Part shown: one piece after another, positions 49,001-50,395 of the stretch
Position numbering within the stretch: the first letter of the stretch is position 1
How the letters are laid out: every line of letters starts with the position of its first letter
Position numbers and translations under genes: made by a program
Notes under the pieces: generated by a model
The model's input: only the letters and a program-made list of their open reading frames with translations
Database searches by the model: none
What the model was told of the DNA's origin: nothing
Assembly (NCBI RefSeq): GCF_008638345.1
Contig: NZ_VTVA01000001.1
Coordinates: forward strand, 124,001-188,000
Length of the DNA: 64,000 nucleotides
Source of the DNA: Pseudomonas saliphila
GTDB taxonomy: Bacteria; Pseudomonadota; Gammaproteobacteria; Pseudomonadales; Pseudomonadaceae
Reading direction: 5' to 3'

Positions 49001-49552
49001 GGCTGCATGCACATGTTCTTCATCGTTGCGACGACTAGTGCGCTGCAACTCAAGGTAGAAGCGCCCGGGGAACACCCCCATCCAGAAGCTGAGCAATTCA
49101 TCGGCTTCATGCGGATTGTTGGACAGCAGCGCCTGGCCGATCTCACCTTCCTTCGCGCCGGACAGCGCAATGACGCCTTCGCTGGCTTCAGCGATCCACT
49201 CGCGGCGAATGGTAACCAGGCCATTCTTCTGCCCTTCGGTATACCCACGCGAGATCAGTTCGGTGAGGTTGCGGTAACCCGGCCGATCCATAGACAGCAG
49301 GGTCATGCGGGTCAGACTGCTCTCGTCATCGCGGCCCACCAGCCAGATATCCACGCCCGAAATCGGCTTGATGCCTGCACCCATGGAGGCCTTGTAAAAT
49401 TTCACCAGGCTGCACATGTTGTTCTGATCGGTGACTGCCACAGCCGGCATCCCACCCTCGCCCACCGCTTTGATCAACGGTTTGATTCTGACCAGACCAT
49501 CCACGAGGGAATATTCACTGTGGACGCGCAGATGGACGAAGGAGAAGCTCAT
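46028..49552 (-). CDS. dnaE: DNA polymerase III alpha subunit
   Basis: The 1174-aa replicative polymerase has an N-terminal PHP domain (FVHLRVHSEYSLVDGLV), the catalytic Asp pair in MPDFDIDFCMEGRD, and helix-hairpin-helix and oligonucleotide-binding folds near the C-terminus. It synthesises both chromosome strands as part of the holoenzyme. The frame is open to 49582, but ATG 49552 with AGGA 6 bases before it is the normal start. It differs clearly from the shorter DnaE2 at 33 kb. Upstream is the long repeat-bearing gap. Confidence 0.97.
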   Translation of the reverse strand: MSFSFVHLRVHSEYSLVDGLVRIKPLIKAVGEGGMPAVAVTDQNNMCSLVKFYKASMGAGIKPISGVDIWLVGRDDESSLTRMTLLSMDRPGYRNLTELISRGYTEGQKNGLVTIRREWIAEASEGVIALSGAKEGEIGQALLSNNPHEADELLSFWMGVFPGRFYLELQRTSRRNDEEHVHAAVALATRLDCPVVATNDVRFLKREDYEAHETRVCIGEGRALDDPRRVRQYSEEQYLKTPAEMAELFSDIPEALENSVEIATRCNIDVQLGTYFLPEFPIPAGLTIEEYFRQVSFEGLEERFKLILPPDSDDYDARRQVYVDRLNFELDIINQMGFPGYFLIVMDFIKWAKGNGVPVGPGRGSGAGSLVAYALLITDLDPLAYDLLFERFLNPERVSMPDFDIDFCMEGRDRVIDYVAETYGRDAVSQIITFGTMAAKAVVRDVARVQGKSYGLADKLSKMIPFEVGMTLAKAFEQEEILREFLAADEEAQEIWDMARKLEGITRNVGKHAGGVVIAPTKLTDFAPLYCDEAGAGLVTQFDKDDVEAAGLVKFDFLGLRTLTIIDWAMDTINREQAKNGLEPLNIDFIPLDDAPTYRMLQKAETTAVFQLESRGMKELIKKLKPDCLEDLIALVALFRPGPLQSGMVDDFINRKHGREIVSYPHPNYQYAGLEPVLKPTYGIILYQEQVMQIAQVMAGYTLGGADMLRRAMGKKKPEEMDKQRTIFLEGCTNNGISADLAGNIFDLVEKFAGYGFNKSHSAAYGLVSYQTAWLKAHHPAAFMAAVLSADMHNTDKVVTLIEECRSMKLRMKSPDVNLSEYKFTVDESGAVVYGLGAIKGVGEGPVETIVQTRRAGGPFTDLFDFCARVDLKRINKRVMDALVRSGALDSMGPFFDTEQAVYLKQVDRNRAALAEAMEEAMAAAEQTAKSASSGHDDLFGELLGPSADRDVFEHYRKVREWSFKERLRGEKETLGLYLTGHPIDEYEKEVRRFARQRIIDLKPSRESQTIAGLVFDLRVMKSKRGDKVGFVTLDDRSARIEVSLFAEAFQAAQSLLQKDALLVVEGEVAQDDFSGGLRMRAKRVMSLEDARTNLLDSVRIRMDTQRHGPDCLSHLAGLLQKHKGGCAVTIDFQRCDATALLKLGDNWKVEPADELVQSLRDQLGKDSVSLHYR

Positions 49553-49739
49553 TGGTAATCCTGTTTCAGAAGCGGACGGCAAGAGAGCGATTGTAACGGT
49601 GGGGGGCGAATCGAGCCAGCGACCTTGGGTCTGGTTTGTCTATCGATGTTCTGCCTCTTATTTCCGCATTCAAGATCGCCGGAGACTTGAAGGTGTGTTT
49701 GGGGAGCCAGTCGCTCGCTCCACATCCGCGCCGGATTCC

Positions 49740-49808
49740 GCAAGACGCCGTGAACCCGTCCCTGGGGGCTTGACGAAAACTTCCCTGTTTTCAACACTTG
49801 CTCCATCC
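49740..49808. repeat. 69-base direct repeat, copy 1
   Basis: It begins GCAAGACGCCGTGAACCC and ends TTCAACACTTGCTCCATCC. Copy 2 (50115-50183) differs at only 6 of 69 positions. The inner palindrome of copy 2 (GAAAAC/GTTTTC) is also present here. It is probably a dispersed element of the REP or MITE kind. Confidence 0.75.
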
Positions 49809-49881
49809 GGCACGGATGCGGGCTCGATCAAGCATCGGTGTGGCTAGAAGCATCAAAACCATCAGCCGCACGAAACCAATT

Positions 49882-49902
49882 CCCCCCTTGGTCAAAGGGG
49901 GG
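49882..49902. repeat. C-run/G-run hairpin element
   Basis: Arms CCCCCCTT and AAGGGGGG with loop GGTCA, followed by a further CTAGGGGGG. This resembles short palindromic elements scattered in many proteobacterial genomes; that comparison is from memory. Confidence 0.5.
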
Positions 49903-50114
49903 CTAGGGGGGATTTAAGCCCTGCGGCAGACGCATCGACCAGGCATCAAGCGCTCGAAACAGCCGTCCTGAAGCCAAGCGCCCGCAAGTTAATCAAATCT
50001 TCCTCGCGGCAGCTAACCCCGGATTTACGCCGGAACCAGACTCATCTGTTTCGCGGTCGCGTGAAGATGTGATTTGATATCTGGAGCGGGTCGCCCACCA
50101 GCTGCCAGGGTTGC

Positions 50115-50183
50115 GCAAGACGCCGTGAACCCATCCATGGGGGCTTGGTGAAAACATCCCTGTTTTCAACACTTGCTCCACCC
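50115..50183. repeat. 69-base direct repeat, copy 2
   Basis: Same length and orientation as copy 1, 63 of 69 bases identical. It contains two small palindromes: CCCAT-CC-ATGGG, and GAAAAC-ATCCCT-GTTTTC. The flanks on both sides also show weaker likeness to those of copy 1, so the full unit may be about 150-180 bases. Confidence 0.75.
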
Positions 50184-50395
50184 TGACAGCCGGCAGGCTC
50201 GGTCGAGCATCCGCGTGATGCGGAGAATAAACCTGGTTTGGGGTGTGCCATCCGGCAACTCAAATATTGATGCGAAGCGAGGCGGCGGGGTTGCGCTGAC
50301 CGTTTGATGACATGGATGTCATCAGCGAGCTTACAGGGACGTACCTGCAGCGTGTCGGCGCGGCCCTGTCGCCTCGCGCAAGCTCACTCGGTGAA

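Follow-up and report, generated by a model that had tools for sequence, protein, structure and literature searches.

The two direct repeats that lie between a pair of Pseudomonas saliphila genes, which we take to be rnhB and dnaE, are members of a family of structured, interspersed elements that extends across the class and has the core of the Yersinia repeat YPAL, a conclusion to which we assign a probability of about 0.9. (These gene names, and hemE, gltD and tuf below, presumably apply; they come from a first-pass annotation of the same DNA or were recognised in translations.) The arms and stems of the elements drift and yet remain complementary, and mismatches in them are tolerated on one particular strand.

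The repeat pair and its copies in the genome

Comparison of the two repeats in the window (the whole 64,000-nt stretch of DNA that was analysed) reproduced the 63 of 69 identical bases reported in the first-pass annotation, with 49740-49808 and 50115-50183 in the same orientation at a start-to-start offset of 375. The weaker similarity described outside these blocks was also present, and extends the alignment to 110 nt at 82% (49733-49842 and 50108-50217). Chance resemblance is excluded, as a 141-nt query on copy 1 found copy 2 at E = 9.5e-25 in a search of the genome. Folding showed that the two small palindromes noted inside each copy are true hairpins, and that they are enclosed by a larger clamp stem. 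The peptides KTG-x-FS-x-SP and VHGVLRNP were likewise found in real open frames on the minus strand (49549-49806 and 49993-50181), which we read as the repeat translated and not as genes. A partner repeat, B, which was absent from the annotation, lies at 50277-50377 on the opposite strand and has the same architecture. The rnhB-dnaE gap showed no sigma-70-like promoter. The features are:

49717-49823, minus strand (the strand with the GGA loops): A element copy 1, a clamp stem and two hairpins, from the fold, model R1 and the genome-wide family; no adjoining B partner
49728-49813, plus strand: match of copy 1 to model R1, E 2.3e-11
49757-49764, minus strand: hairpin-1 loop of copy 1, CAGGGACG, from sequence and fold
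49780-49787, minus strand: hairpin-2 loop of copy 1, CAGGGAAG, from sequence and fold
50100-50191, minus strand: A element copy 2, from the fold; model match at 50103-50188 on the plus strand, E 3.9e-15
50132-50139, minus strand: hairpin-1 loop of copy 2, CATGGATG, from sequence and fold
50155-50162, minus strand: hairpin-2 loop of copy 2, CAGGGATG, the GGA triplets of the two loops being separated by 20 nt, from sequence and fold
50277-50377, plus strand: B element, the inverted partner of copy 2, from the fold; 22 matches in the genome; model match at 50284-50370 on the minus strand, E 6.2e-18
50311-50318 and 50334-50341, plus strand: loops of B, CATGGATG and CAGGGACG respectively, from the fold
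50081-50391, no strand: A-spacer-B doublet, the dispersed unit, with approximate ends (left CTGGAGC, right CTCACTCGG), from the homology shared by 25 doublets in three genomes

The place where a B partner of copy 1 would be expected, 49878-49923, is occupied by another kind of repeat, CCCCCCTTGGTCAAAGGGGGGCTAGGGGGGATTT, that has a hairpin resembling a terminator. A block resembling this repeat also follows A copies in two other loci (L002 and L025).

Far from being confined to two copies without a match elsewhere, A (copy 1 as query) has 26 matches in this genome (4.37 Mb, 59 contigs), 24 of at least 64 nt and two short (32 and 26 nt), and matches occur in 27 of the 58 genomes searched, this one included, some of them short. 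B has 22 matches in the genome, some partial (four are 47-81 nt). The proposal that the repeat is a folded, dispersed unit is thus supported by the 26 matches, which are often clustered; the part of it that invoked a REP element linked to a transposase of the RAYT type is not, as no RAYT gene was found near the elements in the loci scanned. Neighbouring A and B on the contigs of this genome have a fixed polarity and are spaced by 47-99 bp, once by 192, and sometimes alternate in runs (e.g., three A and three B in 1.1 kb of contig C12). They are often head to head, and in three genomes that make up the window's own group (G000, G020 and G023) the pair has spread as a unit of ~310 bp. Among 25 distinct doublets from these genomes, homology drops from 0.8-0.9 to 0.25-0.27 some 40-60 bp beyond both cores, which gives the unit sharp ends that resemble CCGGAGC...GCTGACTCCGG and fall at approximately 50081 and 50391 in the window. 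By eye, no clear target duplication was seen at the doublet ends. The arms are largely common to copies within this group.

Our search pattern recognised at least 157 elements in 100 of 120 named loci, among the matches listed. In the same matches, 39 of 50 neighbouring pairs less than 400 bp apart were plus then minus (head to head), spaced by 30-241 bp, and a lone element was recognised at 84 of the 124 sites of the gene-orientation test described below. We rejected the idea that a gene is carried between elements: by eye, three head-to-head pairs 577-1466 bp apart hold ordinary genes and no transposase, their contents being a short-chain dehydrogenase with a DsbA-like protein, ribosomal L28, and no clear gene.

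Fold, arm divergence and the strand that matters

The minus-strand RNA of copy 1 folds at -57.6 kcal/mol (z -4.2), that of copy 2 at -48.6 kcal/mol (z -2.6), and the B element at -71.4 kcal/mol (z -9.1); the fold signal of copy 1 as plus-strand DNA was weaker (z -1.65). Single elements in the window measure about 92-107 nt, with a clamp stem of ~25-30 bp around a conserved core of ~52 nt that runs ACGC(C/T)G(T/C)RAA, hairpin 1, GGCTYG, hairpin 2. The linker bases of the junction (ACGC..GTRAA) are also conserved. As A on the plus strand and B on the minus strand match one model, the two share a fold on opposite strands.

Covariation was scored in 20 elements of one length class, using a structure that we had read from those very sequences. 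In this set 94% of cells were paired, 24 of 35 pairs had changed on both sides, and the covariation score was 0.614, versus 0.170 for shuffled and 0.05-0.10 for slid alignments. One-sided changes occupied 2 of 340 outer-helix cells, versus 35 that were unpaired. In a further 20 elements, drawn from 19 other genomes in the class, 30 of 35 pairs were doubly changed, the score was 0.854 versus 0.200, and pairing reached 98.8%, the last figure being flattered because these were the best model matches and were aligned to the model.

Arms without relation between copies were seen outside the window's own group. The ~30 bp arms of 21 elements in a genome of the same order but another family (G039) had an identity between copies of 0.31, where chance is about 0.25-0.3, yet they were 0.94 complementary to their own partners and 0.32 to the partners of other copies. 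The corresponding values for the eight elements of G041 were 0.33, 0.88 and 0.32. Because own arms had been picked for complementarity, mixed left and right flanks were given equal freedom as a control. The median pairing score in G039 was 24.6 (minimum 17.2) for own arms versus 3.6 (maximum 11.4) for mixed ones; in the named loci it was 21.4 versus 4.0, with the top 1% of mixed pairs reaching 21, where relatives share arms. Derivation of the arms from the target site was not supported at the one site tested, as another genome of the same genus, G058, has neither element nor arms in the gap beside tuf, where G039 has two elements.

Resident copies were compared in orthologous gaps. The start of dnaE was found in 26 of the 37 genomes of the genus that were searched, the window's own included. 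The rnhB-dnaE gap contained elements in 10 of the 26 (G000, G020, G023, G019, G026, G001, G014, G012, G030 and G036, the last truncated; several were called by eye), was only 100-176 bp long without a recognised core in 11, and was not called either way in five. With diverged arms and this distribution, the earlier suggestion that the insert is recent is doubtful. Filled and empty sites, a trait of YPAL, both occur in this gap and in that beside tuf; exact insertion junctions are not fixed, as gap lengths vary widely. Individual gaps had their own peculiarities. The rnhB stop codon region of G026 (locus L174) lies inside a B-type element, so that the element forms the 3' end of the gene. The A element of G012 (L153) seemingly has an extra hairpin inserted in its hairpin-1 region, and G030 (L152) has the doublet with the order and orientation of A and B reversed relative to the genes.

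Elements were present in nine of the 18 hemE-gltD gaps found (one truncated), and none was recognised by eye in the other nine. Orthologous elements at this site differ by paired changes, e.g., TTGCC/GGCAA to TTGTC/GACAA and TAC/GTA to CCC/GGG. In all six pairwise comparisons of four species, the elements were 83-96% identical, the coding ends 86-96%, and the remaining intergenic sequence 38-63% when alignment gaps count as differences, at the one site tested. As these elements are as conserved as the coding ends beside decayed gap DNA, the hemE-gltD copies are under constraint in place. Loci L230 (G004) and L228 (G007) have flanks that are 99% identical over 137 nt at this site, and G004 lacks one element and has the second truncated; another hairpin repeat occupies the place of the missing element.

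Without a strand preference, a transition in a paired stem gives G.T or A.C equally often. On the ACGCC strand of 348 distinct elements, arm mismatches were A.C in 556 cases versus G.T in 99. When elements were grouped by genome or single locus, 91 groups favoured A.C, 13 favoured G.T and 44 were tied (91 of 104 untied, p 1.4e-15), some groups being relatives and not all independent. This excess indicates that the fold that matters is that of the complementary (GGA) strand, on which the same mismatches are G.T/G.U. G.A and G.G were also favoured on the GGA strand (298 and 103, versus 34 and 12), and a preference for all G-containing mismatches (G.T, G.A and G.G) fits either RNA or single-stranded DNA. 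We infer that the folded strand with the GGA loops is the active form. Strand-specific mismatch tolerance offers a simple handle on the active strand of palindromic repeats.

On the GGA strand, hairpin 1 has the loop CANGGANG in 343 of 348 elements, a sequence that the search pattern favours. A pairing rule found a second hairpin with a 4-nt loop in 290 elements and none in the other 58, the rule being one that misses looser loops. The second loop is CANGGANG in 250 of these 290 and differs in 40; many second loops in G039 are GGGA without the CA..G frame.

Spread, known relatives and the transposase search

In a class-wide sample of 274 genomes, the structure model matched 48 (the window's own included), equivalent to 43 of 222 genera, and the per-genome counts are lower bounds as at most 16 candidates were scored in each. 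Among those listed, named records with matches include Stenotrophomonas, Xanthomonas, Marinobacter, Microbulbifer, Rheinheimera and Haliea. A single A copy, used as BLAST query, had no match at E 1e-5 in plasmid or phage records. Rfam had nothing at gathering level in the window, and its sole gathering-level match in 18 named element loci was an RNase P gene.

The closest relative is YPAL/RU-2. The reverse complement of the Y. pestis RU-2 sequence printed in Table 1b of PMC2759123 has the same core, AAGACGCCGT-AA, and, compared by eye, two hairpins with CATCC loops and CTTT closing; this repeat, too, is dispersed, intergenic and structured. The available text of PMC2229807 describes YPAL as ~168 bp long, known from Yersinia and Erwinia, and as duplicating 3-26 bp of its target, at or close to dyads, and PMC2847712 gives, in its accessible portion, counts by Yersinia species. 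The elements described here differ in several respects. Instead of a single ~168 bp unit they form elements of about 92-107 nt and a dispersed unit of ~310 bp; they have A and B subtypes, head-to-head doublets in three genomes and a class-wide range; in some genomes the arms of different copies show no relation to each other. Target duplications like those of YPAL were not clearly visible by eye. The portions of these sources that could be read place the repeat in Yersinia and close enterobacteria only, compared with 43 of 222 genera in our one class sample. Rfam family RF02770, Ysr224, has the same core and weakly matches 50069-50175 of the window (26.1 bits, E 0.0007), but this is far under its gathering score of 70, and Rfam models the strand with the TCC loops, whereas our mismatch test favours the opposite one. 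Ysr224 is an RNA detected in Yersinia, according to the accessible text of PMC9029176 and PMC12112432.

REP and REPIN sequences resemble the elements in being palindromic, intergenic and multicopy, with inverted doublets. However, REPs are 20-40 bp (PMC3733652, available text), while the elements are about 92-107 nt, have two inner hairpins and show no link to a RAYT. Like ERIC and other bacterial MITEs they are small, non-coding, folded, dispersed and mostly in transcribed gaps, but no sequence relation to ERIC (RU-1), as printed in PMC2759123, was apparent by eye. In open-licence literature, the element core as letters retrieved only papers that were unrelated by title and abstract start, and neither variable-stem repeats of this kind nor a connection of CsrA with YPAL was found.

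We searched 11 genomes for the Y1 transposase family and obtained matches in 10, including five in the window's own genome, and examined 30 Y1 loci (four of the own five). Within about 1.5 kb of these 30 loci from 10 genomes, no sequence reached 60% identity to an A or B core; the flanks of 24 were also inspected by eye. Over the 30 loci and the 10 Stenotrophomonas and Xanthomonas loci described below, the structure model gave only four weak matches (15.5-24.7 bits), of which the two best were plain palindromes without the core; the better match at the 30 loci was such a palindrome pair. A RAYT profile built by us found nothing in the 12,390 ORFs of the remaining loci; it recovered all 30 Y1 loci as a control, which are largely its own training set. 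The RAYT gene that the first-pass annotation led us to look for was therefore not linked to the element in the loci scanned, and we reject a RAYT origin, as there was no element near the Y1 loci and no RAYT in the element loci. S. maltophilia and other species have long, partly self-complementary terminal inverted repeat families beside Y1 genes (TIRYT; Di Nocera 2013, PMC3733652, available text). These repeats, shown there in figures, may conceivably be the same as the elements, but nine Y1 loci of two S. maltophilia genomes lack our core, as did the set of 10 that adds one from Xanthomonas hortorum. Several Y1/RAYT genes of the genus (loci L079-L108) have other palindromes adjoining them by eye, and REP-like systems thus seem to coexist with the element family.

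Candidate roles of the elements

Our preferred candidate mechanism, which is a guess from the sequences that we hold tentatively, is that the elements are RNAs on which the regulator CsrA/RsmA docks. The GGA strand would act as RNA, its two CANGGAYG hairpins 20 nt apart would dock one CsrA/RsmA dimer, and the docked element would titrate the regulator or anchor it on transcripts, with mobility supplied in trans by some enzyme. Inverted pairs would mean that transcription from either side exposes one GGA element. We consider possible, but rather unlikely, a broader version in which a mobile, class-wide folded family seeds candidate paired docking hairpins across gammaproteobacterial genomes. 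The result would be a distributed sponge, often of inverted doublets that expose a GGA element on either transcribed strand, whose arms would be free to diverge while the loops and the 20-nt spacing stay nearly constant. Diverging arms would lower recombination between the copies of such a sponge. If the CsrA reading is true, the amount of a global regulator that can be bound would be set in part by mobile DNA; otherwise these observations point to a system for single-strand transposition.

The accessible text of PMC7652899 gives the CsrA SELEX consensus as RUACARGGAUGU with an ANGGAN hexaloop, and states that CsrA can bridge a pair of sites separated by 10-63 nt, with the best distances above 18, and that very stable stems may disfavour binding. 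The usual reading of both loops on the GGA strand, CANGGAYG, is the CsrA/RsmA consensus, a likeness that we noticed after the fact, and hairpin 2 of copy 2 (ACAGGGATGT) agrees with the SELEX consensus exactly from ACA to GU. A loop pair at CsrA bridging distance is usual: among the 290 elements whose second hairpin could be scored, 249 have ANGGA in both loops, and 20 nt separate the two GGA triplets in 246. RNAs of the CsrB/RsmY/RsmZ type also have ANGGA hairpin loops, with repeated CAGGA(U/A/C)G in CsrB (same source and portion); they differ from the elements, which have two putative sites each, many dispersed copies and a long clamp stem. A csrA gene was detected in 48 of the 52 genomes that have elements and in 18 of the 20 that lack them, which is compatible with CsrA docking but uninformative as a test of it. 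Of the four element-bearing genomes that showed no csrA, three are 67-88% complete; the fourth, G254, is 98% complete, has nine matches, and keeps both GGA loops in its listed element (L263). The conserved junction linker (ACGC..GTRAA) counts against CsrA docking, as binding of this protein leaves it unexplained.

The genes around the elements bear on the active form of the GGA strand. Of 124 element sites, 44 were between convergent, 71 between co-directional and nine between divergent genes, versus a background of 117, 320 and 117 of 554 gaps. Divergent (promoter) gaps are therefore avoided (9 of 124 versus 117 of 554, p 0.0002) and convergent gaps are enriched. This test used our own crude ORF caller, excluded 45 further sites inside long ORFs, and dropped sites less than 450 bp from the end of a locus and those not flanked by genes within 500 bp on both sides. 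Singletons with co-directional neighbours had the GGA strand sense in 23 cases and antisense in 24, and the mismatch bias was alike in both (94:15 sense, 96:14 antisense). The 11 elements in divergent gaps were the only class without a mismatch bias (6:6). Simple mRNA control was not supported, as orientation and mismatch bias are neutral to the direction of the neighbouring genes. This neutrality argues against selection via the read-through mRNA of neighbours, and leaves a transcript of the element's own or a role as single-stranded DNA.

It is possible, although we think it somewhat unlikely, that the GGA strand folds as single-stranded DNA and is recognised in trans by a recombinase, such as an HUH/Y1-like transposase, in the way that RAYTs recognise REP hairpins. 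The mobile unit would then be the head-to-head doublet, much like a REPIN, and the loop and junction bases might be recognition sites of the enzyme, a proposal that we hold just as loosely. A strand-specific fold that is independent of gene direction is what this explanation expects, and it accommodates the conserved junction bases, the inverted doublets (plus then minus in 39 of 50 close pairs among the matches listed), the sharp ends of the dispersed unit and the tolerance of every G mismatch. However, the loci scanned have no Y1 gene beside an element, and arms unrelated between copies mean that whole-unit copying is not recent in some genomes. In addition, orthologous residents are constrained and compensate in place, and mobility alone selects for neither.

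The avoidance of divergent gaps and enrichment between convergent genes (9 and 44 of 124) would also be consistent with a transcript structure that acts without CsrA, in 3'-end protection, termination or RNase III/E processing, roles that have been suggested for YPAL, ERIC and REPs. YPAL is reported to be co-transcribed or co-translated and possibly to affect upstream RNA stability (PMC2229807, available text). We regard this as unlikely, since such a structure would require neither a strand preference nor the recurrence of the same two loops in copy after copy. Improbable, finally, are selfish or neutral palindromes in which template switching in hairpins copies mutations from arm to arm: complementarity would then arise without selection, in keeping with nearly perfect arms that are unrelated between copies (in G039, 0.94 to own partners and 0.31 between copies; scores 24.6 versus 3.6) and with the very few one-sided changes (2 of 340 outer-helix cells versus 35 unpaired), but the mismatch asymmetry is strand-specific, the core and loops stay fixed while the stems drift, and at one site, hemE-gltD, the elements match coding DNA in conservation although the intergenic DNA around them has decayed.
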